Below, piece after piece: positions 3,864 to 43,158 of a stretch of 43,158 bases of DNA. Location: NCBI GenBank assembly GCA_031266805.1, contig JAISAH010000100.1, positions 1 to 43,158 on the forward strand, given 5' to 3'. A model generated the notes under the pieces. It was not told the DNA's origin and made no database searches. It worked only from the letters and a program-made list of their open reading frames with translations. Numbering within the stretch: position 1 is the first letter of the stretch; every line of letters begins with the position of its first letter. Both the position numbers and the translations under genes were made by a program. The stretch comes from Gracilibacteraceae bacterium. GTDB lineage: Bacteria; Bacillota; Desulfitobacteriia; Desulfitobacteriales; Syntrophobotulaceae.

Positions 3864-6800
3864 TTACTCAAATAATAACGTGAGCTGTCTGCTTTCCGGC
3901 AACCCGGCCAAAGACCCGTGCCGGCGCAGGGCTTCGATGACCGGCTGAGCCACGCCGCGCAGCTGAAAATCCTCGACGGAACATATTTCCCGGCCGGAGC
4001 GCAAATCAGCCAATTGCTGGGCCGCGGCCGCCCCGATCCCTTTCAGGGAGGTAAAAGGCGGCAGTATGCCCGTATCCGTGATGAGAAAACTCGTCGGGTG
4101 CGACTCTTTGATATCCACCCGGCGCAGGGCGACCCCGCGGGCGTACATCTCCGCCGCCAATTCCAGGATCGTGTACAGATTTTTATCCCGTTGCGAGGCG
4201 TCGCGCTCTTTTTGTTTTATCGCCTTCAAAGCCTCCTGGCAGGCTTCCTTCCCGGCCGCCGCTATATCGGCGTCGAATTCGTCGGCCCGCACCGTAAAAA
4301 AACTGGCGTAAAACGCTTCGGGGAAATGGATCTTGAACCAGGCGATGCGCACGGCCATCGTCACATAGGCCACGGCGTGCGCCTTGGGGAACATATACTT
4401 TATCTTGCGGCAGGAATCGACGTACCAGGGCGGCGCGTCCACGGCCCGAACGGCCTTCTCCCATTCCGGCGTCACCCCTTTGCCTTTGCGCACGCTCTCC
4501 ATGACGGCGAACGCCAGAGGCGGCGTCATCCCCCGACTCATGAGATAAGTCATGATATCGTCCCGGCAGGCGATGATCTGCTCGATGCCCGCCGTGCCCG
4601 CCCGCACCAAATCCTGGGCGTTGCCGCGCCAGACGCCCGTGCCGTGCGACAGACCGGAAATACGCACGAGATGGGAAAAATTGCGCGGTTTGATGTCCGC
4701 CAGGATCTGCCGCGAGAGGTCGGTGCCGAATTCCGGGATGCCCAGCGTCCCCGTGAGCGAGCCGATCTCCTCCGACGACACGCCGAGCGCCGCCGTGCCG
4801 GAAAAAAGCGACAGCGTTTCCGCGTCGTCAAGCGGGATAGTTTTCGCGTCCACCCCCGTCAGATCCTCCAGCAAACGGATGACCGTCGGGTCGTCATGCC
4901 CGAGCAGGTCGAGTTTGACGAGACTGTCGTGCAGATAACTATATTCAAAATGCGTCGTGACGATTTCCGTCTTTTGGTCGTTGGCCGGACGCTGCAAAGG
5001 GGTAAAATCATAGATATCCGCTTCCTTCGGCAAAACCATCAGCCCGCCGGGATGCTGGCCGGTCGTGCGTTTAACCCCGACGCAGCCCCGGACCAGCCGC
5101 TCCCGCTCCGCCGCTCTCATGATCTCCCCGTGCTCTTCCGCGTATTTTTTGCAAAACCCGTGCGCCGTTTTCTCCGCCACGGTGGCAATCGTTCCGGCCC
5201 GGAAGATGTTTTCACTGCCAAAAATTTCCTCGACAAATTTATGGGCCCGGGCCTGATAATCGCCGGAAAAATTCAGGTCGATATCCGGCGCTTTTTCCCC
5301 CTCAAAGCCGAGGAAAGTCTCAAAGGGGATATCGTGTCCGTCCTTGACCAGCGCCCGGCCGCAGAGAGGGCAGTCCTTGTCCGGCAGATCCGCCCCGGCT
5401 CCCGCGCCGCCCGTGACGAATTCCGTGTAAGAACAGCTTGTCTCCGAGCAGCGGTAATGCGGCGGCAAGGGGTTTACCTCCGTGATCCCGGTCAGAGTGG
5501 CCACGAGGGAGGAGCCGACCGAACCGCGCGAGCCCACCATATAGCCGTCCTCATTCGATTTTTTTACCAGCAGATGCGCTATATAATACAGAACGGCGTA
5601 ACCGCTGTCTATGATCGCGTGCAGTTCTCTCTCCAGCCGCGCCGCCACGACGGGAGGGAGCGGGTCGCCGTAGAGGGCGCGGGCTGTTTGCATGGTCATC
5701 TCCCGGATATGGCCGGCGGCTTCGGGGATATGCGGGGTGTGCAGCTCGGCGGGAAAAGGCCGCAGTTCCTCCACCCGGGCGGCTAGGGCGCGGGGATTGG
5801 TCACCACGACGCGATAAGCGGTCTCCTCGCCGAGATAGGCGAATTCCGCCAGCATTTCCTCCGTGGTGCGCAGAAAAAGCGGGGCCTGATTGTCGGCGTC
5901 CTCAAACCCTTTGGCCGCCATGATGATCCGCCGGTAAACCTCGTCCTCCGGATCGAGAAAATGCGCGTCACAGGTGGCGACGACCGGGAGACCCAGTTCG
6001 TCGCCCAGCGCCACTATAGCGCGGTTCAGATCGCGCAGGGCTTCTTCGTCCGCCACCCGCCCGCCTTGGATGAGAAAATTATTGTTGGCCGCCGGCTGTA
6101 TTTCCAGGTAATCATAAAAGGAGGCGACGGCGCGCAGTTCTTCCGCCGGCGCGCCGCGAAGCACCGCCTGATAGACCTCGCCCGCCTCGCAGGCCGAGCC
6201 GAGGAGGAGCCCTTCCCGGTGAGCAGCCAAGACTTCCCGCGGCAGGCGCGGGCGGCGGTAAAAATACCGCAGATGCGAATCCGTCACCAGCCGGTATAGG
6301 TTTTTCAGGCCGGCCGCGTTTTGGGCCAACAGGATTATGTGAATATTTGGCATTTTTTCGTTGATGATACCCTCGGTATAATGGGTAAACGGCTGGCCAA
6401 GCAGATACCCCTCCATCCCGAAAATCACCTTGATCTTGCCCCGGGCCACCGCCGCCGCTTCCGGAAAAGCCTGCACGACGCCGTGGTCGGTGATGGCGAC
6501 CGCCTCGTGCCCCCAATCGGCGGCGCGGCGCACCAGAGCCGCCGGCGCGGACACGCCGTCCATATCGGACATCTGCGTATGGAGATGCAGCTCGACCCGT
6601 TTTTCCGCCGCCAGATCCCGCCGGAGACCGGGCGGGGCGATGGCCGTGACGTCTTTCGCCATCAGAGTCAGTTCCTGAGTGTACATGTCCGTCTTCACTT
6701 CGCCGCGCATCCGGTACCATTCGCCGTCGCTCAGGGGCGGCGTCGAAGTTTTTTCCTCCAGGAAAATTTTTACAGCGAGAGAATCCGTGTTGTCGCTCAA

Positions 6801-7346
6801 GACGCAGGTGATGATGCGCCGCCCTGTTTTGGTCTCCCGCGTCTCTATCTGGAAAATATAGCCCTCGGCGACGACCGAGCGCTCCTCCTCCGTGATTTCC
6901 CGCAGCGGGGCGGCCGGAGAGCGGATCTCTCGGCCGGTCAGCACGGCGCCCAGCTCTTTTTGTTTGGCCGCGCTCTTGGCCCGCTGGCGGCGCAGCTGTT
7001 CGGCGTATTTTTCTTCTTCCCGGGCGAACTCATCCCGGACCGCGGCCAGCGAACCCGGAGCGGGCGCTGTCTCCGGCTGCTCCGACGACTTCGCCTGCTC
7101 CGCCTGCTCGCGCCATATGATCTCCGCCGCGGCCGGCAGACAGGCGGCGGTCAAAATCTTGGCGCAAAACTCCCGTTCCGCCGGCGGCGCGGCGCCTGAG
7201 ACGCGCAAATAGATCCGGGCGCGGTTTTCCCGCTCCAAAAGATCCACTTGTTCCAGCCACAGCGCCTCCGCGTAAGGGCTCAGGCGCTCCCGCGCTTCCG
7301 GCGTCAGGGCCCGGAAAAAGGGGGCTTCGGTAATTTTAACGGCCAT
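3864..7346 (-). CDS. polC: PolC-type DNA polymerase III alpha subunit lacking the exonuclease insert
   Basis: This is the replicative DNA polymerase of the PolC family. Visible parts, in order, are a shortened N-terminal region, an OB-fold (about 155-240), the PHP domain with HLHT (254-257) and ITDHG (285-289), the zinc-binding segment with CxxxxC and CPLCG, the polymerase palm with DIDLNF, and the C-terminal fingers and HhH region. PolC normally carries a DEDDh 3'-5' exonuclease inside the PHP domain. Here the PHP strand IKVIFGMEGYL runs straight on to the NIHIILLAQN strand with no DIETTG motif, giving 1160 residues against about 1430 for the B. subtilis enzyme. Proofreading would have to come from another protein. 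The gene lies 4 bases after the proS stop codon and is probably co-transcribed. Confidence 0.95.
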   Translation of the reverse strand: MAVKITEAPFFRALTPEARERLSPYAEALWLEQVDLLERENRARIYLRVSGAAPPAEREFCAKILTAACLPAAAEIIWREQAEQAKSSEQPETAPAPGSLAAVRDEFAREEEKYAEQLRRQRAKSAAKQKELGAVLTGREIRSPAAPLREITEEERSVVAEGYIFQIETRETKTGRRIITCVLSDNTDSLAVKIFLEEKTSTPPLSDGEWYRMRGEVKTDMYTQELTLMAKDVTAIAPPGLRRDLAAEKRVELHLHTQMSDMDGVSAPAALVRRAADWGHEAVAITDHGVVQAFPEAAAVARGKIKVIFGMEGYLLGQPFTHYTEGIINEKMPNIHIILLAQNAAGLKNLYRLVTDSHLRYFYRRPRLPREVLAAHREGLLLGSACEAGEVYQAVLRGAPAEELRAVASFYDYLEIQPAANNNFLIQGGRVADEEALRDLNRAIVALGDELGLPVVATCDAHFLDPEDEVYRRIIMAAKGFEDADNQAPLFLRTTEEMLAEFAYLGEETAYRVVVTNPRALAARVEELRPFPAELHTPHIPEAAGHIREMTMQTARALYGDPLPPVVAARLERELHAIIDSGYAVLYYIAHLLVKKSNEDGYMVGSRGSVGSSLVATLTGITEVNPLPPHYRCSETSCSYTEFVTGGAGAGADLPDKDCPLCGRALVKDGHDIPFETFLGFEGEKAPDIDLNFSGDYQARAHKFVEEIFGSENIFRAGTIATVAEKTAHGFCKKYAEEHGEIMRAAERERLVRGCVGVKRTTGQHPGGLMVLPKEADIYDFTPLQRPANDQKTEIVTTHFEYSYLHDSLVKLDLLGHDDPTVIRLLEDLTGVDAKTIPLDDAETLSLFSGTAALGVSSEEIGSLTGTLGIPEFGTDLSRQILADIKPRNFSHLVRISGLSHGTGVWRGNAQDLVRAGTAGIEQIIACRDDIMTYLMSRGMTPPLAFAVMESVRKGKGVTPEWEKAVRAVDAPPWYVDSCRKIKYMFPKAHAVAYVTMAVRIAWFKIHFPEAFYASFFTVRADEFDADIAAAGKEACQEALKAIKQKERDASQRDKNLYTILELAAEMYARGVALRRVDIKESHPTSFLITDTGILPPFTSLKGIGAAAAQQLADLRSGREICSVEDFQLRGVAQPVIEALRRHGSLAGLPESRQLTLLFE

Positions 7347-34466: not shown

Positions 34467-35366
34467 TTACGCGGGTGTAGATTCCTCGAGGAGTCCCTCG
34501 TATACCCCCTTTATCATCACGCAATCCGCCGAAGCATTGTGTGTTCCCGCGGTGCTTATTCCAAAATGTTCCGCAACCGTCGCCAGCTTGTGATTTTTCA
34601 AGCTGCGCAGCTTCTTTTTGGCAAGCGCCAATGTATCAACCGTTTCATTCGCGAAGGGTTCCATGTGCAATTTCGCGCGCGCCGCGTCAAGAAACGCCAT
34701 GTCAAATTTTATATTGTGCGCAACGAGTTTATGACCGTCCGCGAATTCAGCGAACTCGCGTATGACTGTTTCGAGTTCCTTTCCTTTCGCCGCCAGCGTC
34801 TCCTGAGATATTCCCGTTAATTTCGTAATCTGCGCCGGAATCGGAACATCGGTGTTCACAAACGATTCAAAAGCATCGTCTTCTTGCCCAGGCGCCGCTT
34901 TTAACGCGCTCAACATGATGATCGCGTCTTTCTCAGGGTTCAGCCCTGTGGTTTCAATATCGACGACGACATAAGCGTGACTAGCGGAATTCGGCTGCTG
35001 TGTTTGCGCGGCGCGCCGTTTATTGGCCGCTCTGCGCGCCATAAGAAAGCGGCTGGCCTTACTGTAGCCGAGTTTCATGTCTTTCAGCTCAGGCGAAATC
35101 GGACGCATGATCAGCTTCAGCCCGTCATAATCAATCGGCAGCCAATTGCTGTTGTGCACCTTAAAATCCAAACCTTGCTCGGTATTCGAGTTGAATACCA
35201 TCGTCGCCCTGCCGTTTTTAGCGGATTCCTGTATGCGCTTCCACAGTTGTTCTCTAACACGCGCACTGACCTGCCCGACAAAAACTCCCGGATCAATTTC
35301 CAAGAGCCACTTTGTCAAATCTCCGCGCAATGACAGAGGGCAATTCGTAAGCGAAATCACAAGCAT
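34467..35366 (-). CDS. cas2: Cas2e fused to a DEDDh (DnaQ-like) exonuclease
   Basis: A two-domain adaptation protein of 299 residues. Residues 1-105 are a type I-E Cas2 (MLVISLTNCPLSLRGDLTKW, then VFVGQVSARVREQLW). A basic linker leads to a DnaQ-like exonuclease at about 130-295, with all DEDDh residues apparent: Asp136 and Glu138 in VDIETTG, Asp222 in HNIKFD, His276 and Asp281 in GTHNASAD. Cas2-DnaQ fusions are known in some type I-E systems, where the exonuclease trims prespacers before integration. The start overlaps the cas1 stop as TGATG, so the two are coupled. Both domains look intact. Confidence 0.93.
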   Translation of the reverse strand: MLVISLTNCPLSLRGDLTKWLLEIDPGVFVGQVSARVREQLWKRIQESAKNGRATMVFNSNTEQGLDFKVHNSNWLPIDYDGLKLIMRPISPELKDMKLGYSKASRFLMARRAANKRRAAQTQQPNSASHAYVVVDIETTGLNPEKDAIIMLSALKAAPGQEDDAFESFVNTDVPIPAQITKLTGISQETLAAKGKELETVIREFAEFADGHKLVAHNIKFDMAFLDAARAKLHMEPFANETVDTLALAKKKLRSLKNHKLATVAEHFGISTAGTHNASADCVMIKGVYEGLLEESTPA

Positions 35367-36376
35367 CAGCTTTCATCCTCCAAAATACACCCGGAGCCTT
35401 CTTCAAGCTCTGTTTCGCCAAACATCTCCTCCTGATCCAGTTCCTTGCCATACGAAACCGCGTTCTTGACATAACCGTTCTTTTCATCCCACAAATGCAC
35501 AACGTCGGCGGCAAAGCCATCCTCTTTCACCGTATCCTTTAAGAGCGACCGAATATCCCCGGCTGCGCGTTCCAGTATTTTCCCGTTGGAGATTGCGTCT
35601 CGAACCGCCCGGCGCGTTACGGCGCCCACTTCATCAGTCGTACTCACGGCAGCCGTTTGGAACGCGATGGGGATGGTAATCTCCGCCTTGTACAAATCCG
35701 CGATATCGTAGACAAAAGAACGTTCATGCCCTGTATGAACGAATCCCAATCCGGGCGAGCATCCCAGCGCGACAATAACGCTGTGAGCGACACCGTACAA
35801 ACACGCGTGAGCGGCGGACAAGGCCATGTTCACCACGTCGCTGCCGCCGAAATCATCCGGATCATACGCCCTGCCGGTCCACACGACCCCGGTTTCTTTG
35901 GACGCCGCGCGGTAAACGCCTCTAATCCTCGCGCCTTCCCTGCCGCGAAGTTGCTGCATCGTCAGCCCGGAGACATCTTCATCCGGAAATCGCATGTCAT
36001 ACATGGCCCGCGCTACCGAAAGCCGCGTTCTGGTGTTGGAAACAAGCGCCGCCTGAGCGATTAAAAGGCGGGAGCTGTGTGTCAGCGGCCTGCCATGGGC
36101 GTAATACCGTACCCCGCGCTCGCCGACCCAGATGATGCTTGCCCCGGCGTCGCCCAGAAGTTCAACCGCCCGATGAGAGATATTGGAACCGGGCCCCAGC
36201 ATAACCGTCCCCAGCGCGGCGGCAGGAACATGCACCGTTCCTCGAACGTCTGAAACCGTAATCGCGCTGTCTTGGCGATTGATGACACATCGTTCAAGAT
36301 ACAAGAAGGAAAAACGCTCGCGTATCGGAGGCAACTCATACAATTCGGGCTTTCCCGCGCCATGAAATTCGGCCAT
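35366..36376 (-). CDS. cas1: Type I-E CRISPR-associated integrase Cas1
   Basis: The spacer-integration endonuclease, 336 residues. It matches Cas1e closely, including ERFSFLYLERCVINRQDSAI near the start, and metal-binding Glu147 in RGREGAR, His214 in GFVHTGHE and Asp224/Asp227 in VYDIADLYK. The C-terminus has an acidic extension after the conserved region. A GGAGAGGTG site precedes the ATG. It is coupled to the Cas2-exonuclease gene, and both look functional. Unusually, a short CRISPR array lies directly upstream, between cas1 and the cas6e remnant. Confidence 0.95.
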   Translation of the reverse strand: MAEFHGAGKPELYELPPIRERFSFLYLERCVINRQDSAITVSDVRGTVHVPAAALGTVMLGPGSNISHRAVELLGDAGASIIWVGERGVRYYAHGRPLTHSSRLLIAQAALVSNTRTRLSVARAMYDMRFPDEDVSGLTMQQLRGREGARIRGVYRAASKETGVVWTGRAYDPDDFGGSDVVNMALSAAHACLYGVAHSVIVALGCSPGLGFVHTGHERSFVYDIADLYKAEITIPIAFQTAAVSTTDEVGAVTRRAVRDAISNGKILERAAGDIRSLLKDTVKEDGFAADVVHLWDEKNGYVKNAVSYGKELDQEEMFGETELEEGSGCILEDES

Positions 36377-36420: not shown

Positions 36421-36555
36421 GGGATCACCCCGCTTGCGCGGGGAGCAGAGCGGTAAACGGGAGATCGCTAAAACTTACGAGGGATCACCCCCGCTCGCGC
36501 GGGGAGTAGATGTTTTTGACGCTGGATAATGAGTTCGATATGGGATCACCCCCGC
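36421..36555 (-). CRISPR. Mini CRISPR array: two full repeats, two spacers, one half repeat
   Basis: Full repeats lie at 36421-36448 and 36481-36509, and a half repeat at 36542-36555. The steps are 60 and 61 bases, giving spacers of about 32 bases, typical of type I-E. In crRNA sense (minus strand) the repeat core is CCCCGC-GCAA/GCGA-GCGGGG followed by TGATCCC, with a 6-bp stem. The two full copies differ in the loop and by one base. The rightmost copy keeps only the 3' 14 bases and then changes into cas6e coding sequence, so the end where a leader is expected is missing. Between the leftmost repeat and cas1 are only 44 AT-rich bases with the cas1 ribosome binding site. Confidence 0.8.
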
Positions 36556-36730
36556 GAGTCTCGGGATTCTCCCGTCTGTATAGGCTGTATCTAAGAACAT
36601 CGGTGCGCCATACGCGGCCGCTTGACTCAGGGAAACATGCCTTGGCCGACGCGTGCATGATCTGCAGGTTCAACAACGCGCGCTTCGTTTCCATGCGTTG
36701 TTTATTGATTTCAATCCTGGACAGATACAT
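36485..36730 (-). pseudogene. cas6e: Truncated cas6e running into the CRISPR array
   Basis: The frame starts MYLSRIEINKQRMETKRAL at 36730, overlapping the cas5e end by 20 bases as in normal I-E operons. It continues through ACFPESSGRVWRTDVL, a clear Cas6e N-terminus. After about 57 codons it meets the half repeat at 36555 and reads spacer and repeat sequence until a TGA at 36485, 81 codons in all. Cas6e is normally about 200-220 residues, so most of the protein, including the second RRM-like half that binds the repeat hairpin, is absent. crRNA processing by this protein is not expected. Confidence 0.8.
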
Positions 36731-37463
36731 AATCAGCCTCCAATTCGTCAAAGGGGTCATGTTTCGTTGCGATTGCGTCAAAAACCTCACTGCCCGTATA
36801 TGCCCGCGACAATTCGTTTTTTATTTCGACGGCGCGTACATCCGAAATCACGTTTCTGAATACATGTTGCCTATGGGATTGTGAAAATGTTATCGGAAAA
36901 TCGCGCATTTCAAATACGCCGGGTTCGCCGGGTTCGGCGTCCCTCACAATTTCAAGCCAAACGCCTTTGGGCTGATTTCTCCTGTAGCGTTCGGATGCTT
37001 CCCAAGGAGCGTTCAATAGCGCCGCCATGAGCGGTTGCTCGCGAATGCCGAGGACAAGCGGTACAGAGGGAGGGCATGACCTGCGACCCAAGAAGGTCGG
37101 GAAAACGGGGTTTTGGAGAGCTTTTTCGATTGTATTCAGCAATTCGCGCGGCCCTTCAAGTCCTGCAAGGAAAATCGCATCCGAAAGGTAATAGCGGTCG
37201 GATATAAACGACAGTCTCTTATCCCTGGACGTATGCGCTGTGTGAAAGTCTTTGATTATTTTCCCCGGTTGATCAACGCGAGCGGCGAATTTGAGCCGCT
37301 GCAATTTGTCAATGGGATCATCCCTCTTATAGCCGAGCGCAGCCGCCGCCAAACTGAGCACACCGCTCTTAGTCGGAGTACGTTCCGTAAGTCTGCTGTC
37401 GAATTTTGAACCTGAGCCCCATGACTGCAAGGGGCCTGCCAATCTCAAAAGAAGTGTGTGCAT
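36711..37463 (-). CDS. cas5e: Type I-E Cascade subunit Cas5e
   Basis: The crRNA 5'-handle-binding subunit of Cascade (CasD), 250 residues. Recognisable are LLLRLAGPLQSWGSGSKF, SRLTERTPTKSGVLSLAAAA, VDQPGKIIKDFHTAH, DRYYLSDAIFLAGLEG and FLGRRSCPPS. Length and motifs are complete. AGGAG precedes the ATG. It lies between the Cse2-Cas7 fusion and the cas6e remnant, in the normal operon position. With its partners damaged it may be produced without assembling into Cascade. Confidence 0.93.
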   Translation of the reverse strand: MHTLLLRLAGPLQSWGSGSKFDSRLTERTPTKSGVLSLAAAALGYKRDDPIDKLQRLKFAARVDQPGKIIKDFHTAHTSRDKRLSFISDRYYLSDAIFLAGLEGPRELLNTIEKALQNPVFPTFLGRRSCPPSVPLVLGIREQPLMAALLNAPWEASERYRRNQPKGVWLEIVRDAEPGEPGVFEMRDFPITFSQSHRQHVFRNVISDVRAVEIKNELSRAYTGSEVFDAIATKHDPFDELEADYVSVQD

Positions 37464-37527: not shown

Positions 37528-38514
37528 TCAAATCTCAAGCAATTGATTGAGGTTGACTTTTTTACAGGGACTTCCGTCTTGATTCTTTTGATTTATAAAC
37601 TCATCCGCGACATCGCTCAACATCAGAATATACGACTTTACGGGTGGCTCGGCGAATGAAGCGTACACATCGCTCGCGTATTTCCCCAACCTTTTTGTGG
37701 CGGGCCGAGCAAAACCCTCATTTTTATCCGAAAACCCGATTGGCTTTTCAAAGGCGCCGATAAGATTGACGGGCTGATCTTCGCGTATCGTAACGAGTAC
37801 AGCGTGCGCCGGCGTACGATTAGCGAAGGTGTTCTGTTTGCCTGTGGGCATAGATGTTATGAAACCCCTAGCAAATTCGGAAACGGCTTTCGCTGTCACA
37901 TCCGCGTCATTTGCTAATTCGTCATACAACAGATTTACAAATACAGTGGCATAACGATATAACGTGGATGAGTTGAATTCTATGGTACCGAGCATACCCG
38001 CGCCCGCGTCCTCAGCCTCCTCACTTCGAGCCTTTACATCGTCCACGGCTGTATAAAAATCGTATTCGTTATCTACTTTGTGTACGGAGATACTGTGTGC
38101 GACCTGCGCGGAGGCGTCCGCGTTCAGAGCCGGATCGTCGGCGACCATACGACCGAACAAAGCGATTTCGGCCGAATGTTCCTTTTGGCTCAACGCTTTT
38201 TTCGCTTTCGCCTTGTCAATGTCGGCGCCATTTTTTGTGTGCCCCTGCGAGTGCATTGCATAGAGCGTCAGGGCAATGTGGACAGCGCTTTGAGCGTACA
38301 ATGCCTTGCTCGCATCTCCCGCCAAGATGTCAGGAATATCTTCATACACATACTGCCATATCTCAGGCACGGATACCGCCTCCTTTCCGACGCTTCGCCT
38401 GAGTCTTGCCAACGCTGCTTTTTTGTCGCCGCTAAGCAAACCTTTTTCGTCACGTTTACTCAGCCAACGAAGTTTAGCCGCAACAAAATTCTCTACCGCG
38501 TCCGCTTCGTTCAT
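37528..38514 (-). CDS. In-frame Cse2 (Cas11) N-terminus::Cas7e C-terminus fusion
   Basis: A 328-residue protein made of two incomplete Cascade subunits. Residues 1-91 match the Cse2/CasB start (ENFVAAKLRWLSK, KAALARLRRSVGKE, EIWQYVYEDIP, AVHIALTLYAMHSQG). From about residue 100 it matches Cas7e/CasC from the middle onward (HSAEIALFGRMVADDP, AQVAHSISVHKVDNEYD, GTIEFNSSTLYRYA, then AFEKPIGFSDKNEGF). The second half of Cse2 and roughly the first 150 residues of Cas7e are absent. The junction falls near 38215-38245. An AAGGAG site precedes the ATG. A simple deletion spanning the cse2/cas7 boundary would explain it; the frame is kept, so a stable hybrid could be made, but normal backbone assembly is doubtful. 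Confidence 0.85.
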   Translation of the reverse strand: MNEADAVENFVAAKLRWLSKRDEKGLLSGDKKAALARLRRSVGKEAVSVPEIWQYVYEDIPDILAGDASKALYAQSAVHIALTLYAMHSQGHTKNGADIDKAKAKKALSQKEHSAEIALFGRMVADDPALNADASAQVAHSISVHKVDNEYDFYTAVDDVKARSEEAEDAGAGMLGTIEFNSSTLYRYATVFVNLLYDELANDADVTAKAVSEFARGFITSMPTGKQNTFANRTPAHAVLVTIREDQPVNLIGAFEKPIGFSDKNEGFARPATKRLGKYASDVYASFAEPPVKSYILMLSDVADEFINQKNQDGSPCKKVNLNQLLEI

Positions 38515-38553: not shown

Positions 38554-40122
38554 TTAAATTAAAGCCGCTCTGAAATATATTTCCGCCTTGGAAGCCGTAG
38601 AAAGGTTTTTTTTGCCGCCGCCTTTGTTGACATACCTGCCTATAAACGCCGCGTCGCTCGCGTCATTCAATTTTGCGTTTGCTAATTGGGTCAGCAGACT
38701 CTTTACTGTTTGTTGCCATAACGACAATGCTGCCTCCATGTCTTTGCCCCCGGTCAGGCCGGCGAGCCAATTTCGAAACGGAATATCGAGTTCTCCGTAC
38801 GCATCTTCACGCGCCGCGCCGCGAATTCGCGCTATGTTGCCCTTTTCGTTGTCCGCGCCTTCCGCGAGCGCCAAATCCGAAGCGAACCGTCCGAAGCTTT
38901 GCACGGCCTTATCCGTAAATTCGAGGTTTTCAGCGATCAGGCGCCGCCACTCGGCGCCCAAATCGCTCAAAATATATGAGTTTATCGACACCGAATCCGA
39001 AAACATGTCGATTACCTTTGATCCGAGTTTGTACTCTATGCTCGGTGCCGAAAATTTCACCTGTACATCATCAATGATTTTTTTATTGATCAGTACTTCA
39101 TGCCAATGAACAACGCCGGGTGGTTTGTCTCCGTCCCTGCTTGCGACAAGCGCCGAAAAATCACGCCACAGTTGCCTTGAGGGCCTGTGTTTCATCGGTG
39201 TGAAATTTTCGGTTTTCGGATTTTGCCACCAAAGCGTCATTTGTTCTATAAAGGCGTTTTCTTCACCGAAAAAATCTCCGCCGATTAGTTTATAGCCTAC
39301 GACGGCATTATCTTTGCGCGTAAGAAGAATCCTGCGGGATTGCAGGGTGTAAAGTTCCGCAAGATTGCTTGGCTGTACTATTCTCACGCGCTCCTTCGCA
39401 CATATAGCTTTCTCCCAAACAGGCCGTCCTTCTTTAAATACTTCTTTGTCTGAGTTAAGGAGTACAAAGTTGAGGAGCAGTGTTTCGAATAGGTTCCGAC
39501 CTGCCGAAAAAAGCAGTCCCAACTTTCCCAACCAACCTACGCCGGATGATTCCATACCTACTCCCCGTTCAGAAGGTTTTACCGCAGAATCGTCAAACGC
39601 GTTCAGGTGCAGGAGCCAACGCGCGGCTTCCGGATAGTCAATGTAATCACTGTCTGTTCTGGAAAAGAACAATCTGACCTTATTCCCGCTTTGCGAGATA
39701 TCTCCGATCAGCTTGGGAGTTCGATATTCCGTACATTTTCTTGCATCCAAATCCGCTGCTTGATAAAACGGCTTGTCAGGATGAAACAGATAAAAGCGTT
39801 CCCGAAAGGATTGCAGATATTCTTCGATTTGTGCATAGGGGATCGCTTTTCTTTCCCAAAGCGTTTGCCAACGAGATAGGGCATTATCATCTGTTAAGGG
39901 ATCTGAATTGCCGTCCGCGTCGACCGAGGAAAACACAGCATACAGAATCGCTAAAAGCAAGCGCAGTATCACTATGTCGACAGTTTCCGTTTCGTTCGCG
40001 AGCCGTCTGTACAGGTGGGCGCGCTCAAACACTTCAAGCAGGGAAACATCCGTGAGCGTTCCATCCTTGCCAAGAACGCGTATCCATTTCTCATCGAGTA
40101 GATTGTATTCCGGTTCGTTCAC
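38554..40122 (-). other. cas8e: Cas8e (CasA/Cse1) portion of the fused frame
   Basis: About 522 residues matching the type I-E large subunit, which recognises the PAM and recruits Cas3. Family landmarks are EYNLLDEKWIRVL at the N-terminus, RLLLAILYAVF, FYLFHPDKPFYQ, a segment ending in GVGWLGKLGLLF, and the C-terminal helical bundle. Length is normal and no interruption is seen. It begins at a GTG codon (40120-40122) with AAAGGA directly abutting it, spacing too short for efficient separate initiation. An ancestral start seems to have been absorbed into the longer frame. Confidence 0.85.
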
Positions 40123-43100
40123 TCCTTTCGTATCACGGATAATAAGCATTTGCGAAATGTCATAAATCGCAAAGCTATCGAGATACCCGGACAAATCCCC
40201 TTGGCGGCAAAGGAATTCCTCAATGTTCGCGAGTTTCAAATTGCCTTTTGCGTGCGGAATTTCGCGGCTCTCACCGCTGTAAACCAATACCCGCGTTATT
40301 GTGAAACTATTGTCAACTCCGATGTTTCTGAGAATCCCGTCGTCGTACAGATGTTGCGCTTCGTTCGCAAAAACATTTCGTTCATCTATTTTTCCCTTGC
40401 TTTTGACTTCAATCAAATGAATAGCCTCAGCCTTTCGATTGATAACCACTGCGTCAATTTCACGGTTGGCCAAATCGCGGTACTTGAATACTTTTTCATC
40501 GGAATCGGAGGCGTGTAAAATATGTGCAAATACAATACTCTCGTTCAAATAACCTTCCGCAGCCTGTCTGATTCCGCGTTCAAAGCCCGTTCTGTTAATT
40601 CCGTCAAGCGAAAGCGCGCCGTTAATTGTTTCCCGAACCGCGTAATACATCAATGAGTTATGCGAGAAATAATACAACAACTCTCTCTTGCTCCCGCCGA
40701 AATCGGAAGTTGCGCTGAACGCTTCCATCAGGCAATCGACTTTTACCAAAAAACTAACGAGAGCCTCAATTACCAACTCCGGTCTGTCAACACCCTTGAA
40801 TTCGGAGTAGATATCAAGTGACTCAGCTATTCTTTCCTTTATATCGCGCTTATCCGGCGCCGCCCAACCGCTTATCGCGCTCCCCAAACCCATAATATTC
40901 TTAATGCCGGCGTTTTTAATGAAATGGTTTTTAAGGTCAGGCTCAACAGCGCATTTCAATATGCTTATAATCGCCTTATATATAATTGCCGCGTCAATTC
41001 CGTACAGTCTGCCTGTATATTCGTTTGTTCTGTCGGCGTCCTCCAAACAATGGTCAATGCTGTGAATCAGATTATCAACGACCGCATAACGAATAAATTC
41101 CGGCATCGTATCGGAGGTGAAAATTCCGCCGTGAGTTTTATAGTCCTCGAACGTTTTGCCCAAAACGCGTTTATACTCAGGAAAACTGTTCCAATTTGTT
41201 GAAAATTGCTCGTACCGGTGAAACAGAGATGTTCCGCGCGAAAGCCACAGCAAAAAACTGTCCGTACCCGATACGATTATTTTAATTCCGTACATCGGCA
41301 CAAACTTGTCCGGCCACTCTGCGGAAAGATTCATAAACCCGCCGAGATATGTCGCTTCATCAACGAAGAAGTGCGTATACCCTTTTTCCGCTAAAGATAT
41401 TATTTCTGCGTTTGCGTCACGCATTCCGCTTCCTTCGTAATTGAATCGCGCGTATGCGACTCTGCACCCGTGCTCTGTTAAGGCTTCAGCGGCTTGAAGC
41501 ATACCGACGGTCTTGCCCGTTGAGCGCAAACCGTAAACTATTCCGATTTTTCCGTTGTAATTCCCGTCTGTGCAGTAGTTGATCAACGGTGCGACAAAAT
41601 CGCGTTGCTTGTATTTGCCGGACGAATCGCCTGTCAATTTTGCTATTGTGTCTGTAAGCGTGTCGCCTACTACGAAATTATTGAGTTTATTTTTGTTCAT
41701 TTTCATATACCTTTTGACTCTGATTGAGGGAAACATCGACAATCCTATTTCCTCGCTGTATTCCACTGCATGGCCGCAAATCTCCGCTTTCAGGTTTTCA
41801 TTGAGAATCAACGGCAAAAACCCTCTCAATAGCGGCGATTCCTGCCAAGATCCGACGCCTGAATCAATCGCTTTTCGCTCGAGCGTTCCGATGACTTTGT
41901 CGATTATCCCGGGATTGCATAAGCGCAGAGGGAGCGACACGGTACAGGTCGCCGCAAGTCTCGCAATATCGCTTTCGGGTGTGTATTCCGTGGATATTTC
42001 GGCGCCGGGACGAACGCCTTTGCTCTCATCGTCCACCCACGGCAGGAGATACAGCCTACCGTTCGATTTTTTTTGTACTACGATAACCTCAAGACTTTCC
42101 GCTATATCGCGAACACTTGCCTCGGCCTTGAGTTCATCCTTGTTGTTTTTCATGATGTCGAGCAGATCGACCAAGCTGTCTTTCGCGTTGTCCGAAGGGC
42201 GTCTGAGCCTGAACGCTTCAGCCTTCTTTTCTTTGTGTTCTATGGCTTTGTTATAGTCCTCTTTCGCCTTCTTGTATATTTTATGCTTCGTTTGCGCGTA
42301 AACGATATCCGACTCCCGGTCGATAAGCGATTCCGCGGGACTCGCGCCGCTTCCTTCCGGCACCGTGTATGCGCTCTGTACGAGAAGCGATATATCGTCC
42401 GGCAATGTGACGCGATTTGGGGCGACGGGCAATAGCAACAATGTGTTCAACAGGGCATATCGGCTGTATATCTTCTCAATAACGCCTGCAAATTCCCATG
42501 TATCAGTGTCTTCCACGCCGGTGACGAAACATTTTGCTGCGGCGAGCTTCGCGGGGCGCTTGCGATCGTGCCTGTGCAGACGTCCGACGCGTTGCAGCAT
42601 CAGATCCATTGGGGCGATATCGGAAAAGAGCAGGTCGAAATCGATATCGAGGGATTGTTCCAAAACCTGCGTTCCAACTACGATTAAACGCCCGGGCCGG
42701 CTTCCATCCTCCGTATTGCTGCGCGGTCCAAGCTTGTCCCGGAGCGCTTTTTCCTTCCGCATACGGTCGAAACCCATAAAGCGCGCATGGATGATTTCGA
42801 TGTCGGTGGTCATCCCCATTCGTTCTTTGAGAAGCAGCGCCGTCTGCTGCGCCCTGTCCACTGTATTACAGATCACGCCCGCGCAGCCGCCGTCCGACAG
42901 CAGCTCCGACAGCTTTTCGAGCAACAATTCATCCGGCAGATACTCAAAAGTCACTGCCGTTGATCGTTCGGGAAGTGAGGTCGATATTTGCTTGATTTCA
43001 TCGCCGTCGCTGTATGTAATCAGCGGATAGGACGTATTCGTCGCCCATTTGGGTTTTTGCGGCGTATCGGTCTGCATGTCCGTATTCGTTTGCTTTTTCC

Positions 43101-43158
43101 AAGGCGGCGTCACTGCCGGCGCCGGCGACGGATCCTTGCCCATGTACATGTACGCGTC
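38554..43158 (-). CDS. Continuous Cas3(C-terminal)-ATPase-Cas8e polypeptide, start beyond window
   Basis: One frame without stop codons runs from the window edge for about 1534 codons; numbering here is from the ATG at 43149. Residues 1-480 are the C-terminal part of Cas3, with GVICNTVDRAQQ, IEIIHARF, LIVVGTQVLEQSLDIDFD and QRVGRLHRH (helicase motifs IV-VI). The HD nuclease and motifs I-III must lie outside. Residues 484-1008 are a P-loop ATPase with a PD-(D/E)XK-like motif. Residues 1010-1531 are a complete Cas8e/CasA starting NEPEYNLLDEKWIRVL. Direct Cas3-Cas8e fusions are known in some I-E systems; an ATPase between them is not one I recognise. The locus is AT-richer than its surroundings. 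Confidence 0.85.
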   Translation of the reverse strand, partial: DAYMYMGKDPSPAPAVTPPWKKQTNTDMQTDTPQKPKWATNTSYPLITYSDGDEIKQISTSLPERSTAVTFEYLPDELLLEKLSELLSDGGCAGVICNTVDRAQQTALLLKERMGMTTDIEIIHARFMGFDRMRKEKALRDKLGPRSNTEDGSRPGRLIVVGTQVLEQSLDIDFDLLFSDIAPMDLMLQRVGRLHRHDRKRPAKLAAAKCFVTGVEDTDTWEFAGVIEKIYSRYALLNTLLLLPVAPNRVTLPDDISLLVQSAYTVPEGSGASPAESLIDRESDIVYAQTKHKIYKKAKEDYNKAIEHKEKKAEAFRLRRPSDNAKDSLVDLLDIMKNNKDELKAEASVRDIAESLEVIVVQKKSNGRLYLLPWVDDESKGVRPGAEISTEYTPESDIARLAATCTVSLPLRLCNPGIIDKVIGTLERKAIDSGVGSWQESPLLRGFLPLILNENLKAEICGHAVEYSEEIGLSMFPSIRVKRYMKMNKNKLNNFVVGDTLTDTIAKLTGDSSGKYKQRDFVAPLINYCTDGNYNGKIGIVYGLRSTGKTVGMLQAAEALTEHGCRVAYARFNYEGSGMRDANAEIISLAEKGYTHFFVDEATYLGGFMNLSAEWPDKFVPMYGIKIIVSGTDSFLLWLSRGTSLFHRYEQFSTNWNSFPEYKRVLGKTFEDYKTHGGIFTSDTMPEFIRYAVVDNLIHSIDHCLEDADRTNEYTGRLYGIDAAIIYKAIISILKCAVEPDLKNHFIKNAGIKNIMGLGSAISGWAAPDKRDIKERIAESLDIYSEFKGVDRPELVIEALVSFLVKVDCLMEAFSATSDFGGSKRELLYYFSHNSLMYYAVRETINGALSLDGINRTGFERGIRQAAEGYLNESIVFAHILHASDSDEKVFKYRDLANREIDAVVINRKAEAIHLIEVKSKGKIDERNVFANEAQHLYDDGILRNIGVDNSFTITRVLVYSGESREIPHAKGNLKLANIEEFLCRQGDLSGYLDSFAIYDISQMLIIRDTKGVNEPEYNLLDEKWIRVLGKDGTLTDVSLLEVFERAHLYRRLANETETVDIVILRLLLAILYAVFSSVDADGNSDPLTDDNALSRWQTLWERKAIPYAQIEEYLQSFRERFYLFHPDKPFYQAADLDARKCTEYRTPKLIGDISQSGNKVRLFFSRTDSDYIDYPEAARWLLHLNAFDDSAVKPSERGVGMESSGVGWLGKLGLLFSAGRNLFETLLLNFVLLNSDKEVFKEGRPVWEKAICAKERVRIVQPSNLAELYTLQSRRILLTRKDNAVVGYKLIGGDFFGEENAFIEQMTLWWQNPKTENFTPMKHRPSRQLWRDFSALVASRDGDKPPGVVHWHEVLINKKIIDDVQVKFSAPSIEYKLGSKVIDMFSDSVSINSYILSDLGAEWRRLIAENLEFTDKAVQSFGRFASDLALAEGADNEKGNIARIRGAAREDAYGELDIPFRNWLAGLTGGKDMEAALSLWQQTVKSLLTQLANAKLNDASDAAFIGRYVNKGGGKKNLSTASKAEIYFRAALI
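40123..41706 (-). other. ATPase module between Cas3 and Cas8e (AAA_14-like P-loop with PD-(D/E)XK-like C-terminus)
   Basis: Within the fused frame this part shows Walker A YGLRSTGKT (539-547), Walker B HFFVDEATYLG (593-603) and a sensor strand IKIIVSGTDSFLLWLS (622-637). A long helical region follows, and then Asp899 of NREIDAVV with Glu914 and Lys916 of HLIEVKSK, the D-x14-ExK arrangement of a PD-(D/E)XK nuclease. The order resembles stand-alone AAA_14/DUF4143-type ATPases of unknown role that are abundant and mobile in anaerobes. An internal ATG at 41698-41700 has AAAAGG 9 bases upstream, so it may once have been, or still be, initiated separately. Its end abuts the first residues of Cas8e almost exactly, suggesting whole-gene insertion at the cas3/cas8e boundary. 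Confidence 0.75.

Follow-up and report, generated by a model that had tools for sequence, protein, structure and literature searches.

Does this locus encode a new kind of CRISPR effector, in which a Cas3 helicase, a P-loop ATPase and a Cas8e are made as one polypeptide, or is it a foreign gene caught in a CRISPR operon that is falling apart? The window, meaning the whole stretch of DNA analysed, is one entire contig of 43,158 bp (C31) from a draft genome of 152 contigs and 3.38 Mb. We find an insertion in a decaying locus more likely than a new kind of CRISPR effector, because the arrangement is on a single draft contig, no other genome checked has it, and the remainder of the CRISPR operon is broken.

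On the minus strand, a single frame stays open for 1534 codons, entering at the contig end (43158) and closing with a stop at 38554. The two other frames of the same strand carry about 5 stops per 100 codons, so the length of the open frame is not due to chance. Pfam places the Cas3 C-terminal domains at codons 90-473, AAA_14 at 537-662, DUF4143 at 867-920 and CRISPR_Cse1 at 1019-1491. The frame holds the C-terminal half of Cas3, a full-length ATPase of the AAA_14/DUF4143 type and a full-length Cas8e. The preliminary description of this DNA had claimed one uninterrupted Cas3-ATPase-Cas8e frame, and this is borne out; the profile search it had named matched all three regions, with DUF4143 just under the Pfam cut-off. 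Cas3 and Cas8e share one uninterrupted frame as in a Cas3-Cse1 fusion, but with the ATPase between them and in a draft assembly. Residue numbers refer to a translation (P0001) starting three codons before the initial ATG of the preliminary description, and are therefore its numbers plus 3. The parts of the frame are as follows.

41740..43158, minus strand: C-terminal part of Cas3, comprising the second helicase domain and Cas3_C (Pfam Cas3-like_C_2 and Cas3_C; alignment to the Cas3 of family member G015)
41707..41739, minus strand: read-through linker SMFPSIRVKRY with an SD-like AAAAGG just before the ATPase ATG (sequence; 23% GC, intergenic-like)
40174..41706, minus strand: full-length AAA_14/DUF4143-type P-loop ATPase with a C-terminal nuclease domain (Pfam AAA_14 and DUF4143; 45-63% identity to standalone relatives)
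41173..41550, minus strand: AAA_14 P-loop domain (Pfam; AAA+/STAND fold matches)
40159..40611, minus strand: predicted PD-(D/E)XK nuclease domain (AlphaFold2; fold matches; motif conserved in relatives)
38554..40122, minus strand: full-length Cas8e (Cse1/CasA), starting from the GTG at 40122 (Pfam CRISPR_Cse1, E=1e-93; full-length match to 3wvo)

The Cas3 part contains the second helicase domain and the C-terminal domain (PF22590 and PF18395), and it aligns to residues 539-951 of the 967-aa Cas3 of G015. The contig stops at 43158 within cas3, and the frame runs off the end. The HD nuclease and the first helicase domain, with its Walker A and DExD/H box, fall beyond that point, and for this locus the missing 5' part is on none of the genome's other contigs. 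What begins at the ATG of 43149 is not cas3; this is merely the first ATG within the end-cut gene. The protein had been described as 1531 residues long; the open frame stands, while the length becomes a lower bound because the contig ends inside cas3.

The inserted ATPase is about 510 aa long. AAA_14 scores 27.5-29.5 bits against a Pfam cut-off of 27, and DUF4143 scores 25.7-27.4 bits against a cut-off of 28.1, where close relatives reach 29.2-30.9 bits. The Walker A sequence GLRSTGKT is invariant among the relatives. In the predicted structure, the N-terminal part matches AAA+/STAND folds (VIA, Z about 11-12 over residues 5-196). The model of the whole ATPase is weak in the middle (mean pLDDT 64.6), and only its N-terminal AAA part and a separately folded tail were used. 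That tail, the C-terminal 151 residues folded alone, has an AlphaFold2 mean pLDDT of 91.9 and matches McrC (Z 10.0, 131 residues, 4.8 Å rmsd) and, with Z about 8-9, the R.BspD6I small subunit, FokI and Can2. A D-x14-ExK motif of nuclease type had been pointed out here earlier. It is formed by D902 (40453-40455), E917 (40408-40410) and K919 (40402-40404), and the D...E-x-K pattern is kept in all 11 sequences compared except L052, which has E-x-E. The tail is thus a predicted PD-(D/E)XK nuclease fold with an intact motif, a step beyond the earlier wording 'nuclease-like'. Against the PADLOC models for the anti-phage defence candidate PDC-S01, scores reach 38.3 bits at best, with partial coverage.

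The Cas8e part scores 315 bits with Pfam and 142 bits with NCBIfam, above the curated cut-off, and aligns end to end with the solved CasA structure. It starts with a GTG at codon 1013, in register with the start of cas8e in G015 (VNEPEYNLL versus MREKAFNLL), in agreement with the earlier remark that Cas8e begins with its normal first residues. Upstream, ATPase homology extends to about YLDSF and is followed by about sixteen more codons before that GTG. At the other junction, Cas3 homology reaches EIGL, after which come the AT-rich linker and the ATPase's own ATG at codon 485 (position 41706), preceded by the Shine-Dalgarno-like AAAAGG.

The remainder of the operon lies downstream of cas8e.

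37528..38514, minus strand: in-frame cas11-cas7 deletion ORF (NCBIfam, PADLOC, solved-structure and pairwise alignments)
36711..37463, minus strand: cas5e, apparently intact (NCBIfam TIGR01868)
36578..36730, minus strand: cas6e remnant of about 50 codons, running into CRISPR repeats (comparison with the cas6e starts of C112 and G015)
36421..36571, minus strand: mini-array with two type I-E-like repeats, one degenerate half repeat and two spacers of about 32-33 nt (repeat search, sequence)
35366..36376, minus strand: cas1e, apparently intact (NCBIfam TIGR03638, E=6e-105)
34467..35366, minus strand: cas2e fused to a DEDDh exonuclease domain, looking intact (NCBIfam, PADLOC)

The first of these begins with about 93 codons of cas11 and continues as cas7 from about residue 140-150, so that Cas11 lacks its second half and Cas7 lacks about 140 residues at its start. 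After cas5e come, in order, the cas6e remnant, the degenerate half repeat, the two repeats with their two spacers, and cas1e. No other copy of the mini-array repeat occurs in the genome at up to 3 mismatches, ungapped. Cas2e joined to a DEDDh exonuclease is a known kind of fusion, and it is also present in G015. Since cas11, cas7 and cas6e are all broken, the locus as assembled cannot build its own Cascade and is not a functional type I-E operon. The preliminary description was right about the fusion, but it left this damage unmentioned.

Farther along the same contig, at 3867-7346 on the minus strand, is a PolC of 1160 aa whose PHP domain is contiguous and for which Pfam gives no exonuclease domain match. 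PolC frames are 1160-1169 aa in members of the genus and mostly 1227-1312 in the rest of the family, and the exonuclease-less PolC may be a family trait.

In every other type I-E locus checked that includes upstream sequence, cas3 is directly 5' of cas8e. Searching 398 genomes of the phylum for the Cse1 family gives 29 hits, among which only the fused Cas8e lies in a frame above 717 codons. In 27 of the 29 loci cas3 is directly upstream of Cse1 without the ATPase; the remaining two are a fragment and the fusion locus itself. The check proposed earlier, for homologues with the same order in other genomes, came back empty: the whole-protein search found no other ATPase-cas8e neighbourhood in 101 relatives and 74 genomes of the order, and the search through Cse1 in the 398 genomes of the phylum found no second cas3-ATPase-cas8e order. 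In a small literature search, we likewise did not find the three-part Cas3-ATPase-Cas8e order. The genome does have a second, apparently intact type I-E locus (L033, G000:C112:1-7147) with cas3, cas8e, cas11, cas7, cas5 and a cas6e that the contig end cuts off after 73 codons; its Cas8e is about 36-38% identical to that of the fusion. The DNA of G002 is 82% identical to the contig over 30673-34455, and the similarity stops 12 bp before cas2. There are no cas genes on the remaining 8.2 kb of the G002 contig past the break. Because of this, the cas locus looks like an island in this genome.

The ATPase, in turn, has relatives that stand alone. They are about 510-590 aa long and alike across their whole length, and they include a gene on contig C139 of the same genome, two in genus member G004, and others in MAGs labelled Clostridiales and Deltaproteobacteria. 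In a scan built on the ATPase alignment, which relied on only two peptide patterns and would miss distant relatives, 84,980 species genomes gave eleven loci, all on MAG contigs, two of them apparently the G004 copies again. The isolate names Gx485, Nc350 and Rs511 of these MAGs are taken by us to denote termite-gut samples. Those neighbouring genes to which a type could be given have no relation to one another (cobalt transport, beta-galactosidase, HAD hydrolase, DNA methylase, Schlafen/AlbA), and no recognisable cas genes are near the relatives in the stretches examined, several of which are short. No relative was found in viral contigs, and plasmids and phages gave one weak match each (22.6% and 29.5% identity). 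One MAG carries six tandem copies of the ATPase-nuclease gene (L052:4696-14359; JAISWZ010000649.1). Another, labelled Deltaproteobacteria and from the same sample series (Nc350), has at L054:7983-8618 a near copy, judged by eye from the N-terminus, of the ATPase on contig C106 of G004, and either a transfer between phyla or a binning error is possible. A paper search yielded nothing on AAA_14 together with CRISPR. The one paper that names DUF4143 lists a Thermus AAA_14/DUF4143 gene downstream of a CRISPR array, which is a lead only (PMC4406477).

These observations are best accounted for if a solitary ATPase-nuclease gene landed between cas3 and cas8e, in frame with both, and the locus has since decayed; we consider this probable. 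A solitary gene for a P-loop ATPase with a PD-(D/E)XK domain would have entered a type I-E operon at the cas3/cas8e boundary, with its start codon and ribosome-binding site retained. The stop codons of cas3 and of the ATPase would then have been lost, by substitution, by a small indel or through the insertion itself, leaving three genes in one frame. The product may be one long chain, or there may also be a separate ATPase made through the internal SD and ATG. Later or parallel deletions would have taken parts of cas11, cas7 and cas6e and probably of the array, after which the locus would no longer encode its own Cascade. We infer this order of events, and likewise that the fusion protein does not serve interference in cis; whatever activity remains would belong to the ATPase-nuclease acting as a solitary gene, possibly one of defence. 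The preliminary description had offered as one option a mobile gene that landed at the cas3/cas8e boundary. The landing fits, with a complete gene whose relatives are scattered singly in unrelated contexts and with cas3 directly 5' of cas8e in the other loci checked, while for the mobility there is no sign: no terminal repeats and no convincing target-site duplication were found at the ATPase. An 8-nt direct repeat, GGAATACA, was considered as a duplication and rejected; by our estimate about 0.14 such repeats are expected by chance, and its placement is not sensible.

Three points count against the insertion reading. One is the absence of an insertion footprint just noted. Another is that the visible motifs of the fusion are all intact (helicase V-VI, Walker A/B, D-ExK). 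The third is that, in a simple race model applied to a case chosen because it is odd, the probability that two stops disappear by neutral, stepwise point mutation before one of 598 possible nonsense changes strikes is about 3e-4. Such a value hints at selection on the coding parts as the fusion took shape, or at a fusion created directly by the insertion. If the protein does not work as an effector, the locus shows clearly how a solitary ATPase-nuclease gene can be captured at the boundary between CRISPR genes, and it cautions that a fused frame found open in a draft genome may belong to an operon that is otherwise broken.

Best placed among the alternatives, and still unlikely, is that three adjacent genes only appear fused because a sequencing or assembly error near each junction hides their stop/start overlaps. 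A TGA in the +1 frame overlaps exactly both internal starts, as ATGA at the ATPase and GTGA at cas8e, so that one differing base close to each junction would be enough to give back genes that overlap in the usual way; the cas3/cas8e overlaps in G015, C112 and G004 range from 1 to about 20 bp. Also in favour are the SD and start that the ATPase has of its own, and the state of the genome as a draft in many contigs. However, two independent errors would have to be assumed, chance alone often produces NTGA overlaps given how frequently A is the first base of codon 2, and frame 0 retains recognisable Cas3 to EIGL and ATPase homology to YLDSF.

Somewhat less probable again is a working three-part effector, in which Cas8e, within Cascade, finds the target, Cas3 breaks it down and an ATP-gated cut is contributed by the tethered ATPase-nuclease, with Cas7, Cas11 and Cas6 possibly borrowed from the C112 locus. 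Natural Cas3-Cse1 fusions occur, and an engineered one works in the E. coli Cascade (PMC3890593, PMC9241507). The intact motifs, the second I-E locus in the genome and the stop-loss race, insofar as it argues that the parts were selected during fusion, point the same way. Against this, the order is found in no second genome among those searched, cas11, cas7 and cas6e are broken in cis, and exchange of subunits between the complexes is doubtful because the two Cas8e proteins are so far diverged. The stronger form, a single-chain I-E effector with Cas8e and Cas3 joined via an ATP-gated PD-(D/E)XK nuclease and supplied with Cascade subunits from the second locus in the same cell, seems to us more doubtful still. 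The earlier proposal that the ATPase adds an ATP-dependent or nucleolytic step to interference has the intact motifs in its favour and nothing beyond them. If the fusion does work, it would mean that a third enzyme can be built into type I-E interference as a physical linker, and it would offer a compact Cas8e-nuclease chain.

Least credible is a chimeric contig, with ATPase and cas pieces from different molecules joined by the assembler: the genome is a MAG-like draft, the nearest relatives are contigs with MEGAHIT-style k119 names, and the operon has several odd joins, but the DNA at the two junctions recurs nowhere else in the genome, which makes repeat-driven misassembly unlikely, and both joins fall at gene boundaries with the frame kept, which random joins do not favour.

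The nuclease tail resembles the PD-(D/E)XK domains of McrC, R.BspD6I, FokI and Can2 in predicted fold and D-ExK motif, but at just 8-14% identity, and here the domain shares a chain with an AAA_14-type ATPase. The standalone AAA_14/DUF4143-type ATPases (C139, the G004 copies, L045-L055) share the domains and motifs of the fused one; they differ in having their own stop codons and no cas genes seen nearby. The type I-E locus of G015 (contig C2) has the closest Cas3, Cas8e, Cas5, Cas1 and Cas2-DEDDh found (39-71% identity) in the same gene order. There, however, cas3 and cas8e, which overlap by 20 bp, are separate genes with no ATPase, cas11 and cas7 are full-length, and there are a cas6e-like ORF and a long array after cas2. 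Finally, natural Cas3-Cse1 (Cas3-Cas8e) type I-E fusions likewise carry Cas3 ahead of Cas8e in a single polypeptide read in one frame, whereas here a complete ATPase-nuclease intervenes and the remaining operon is damaged.
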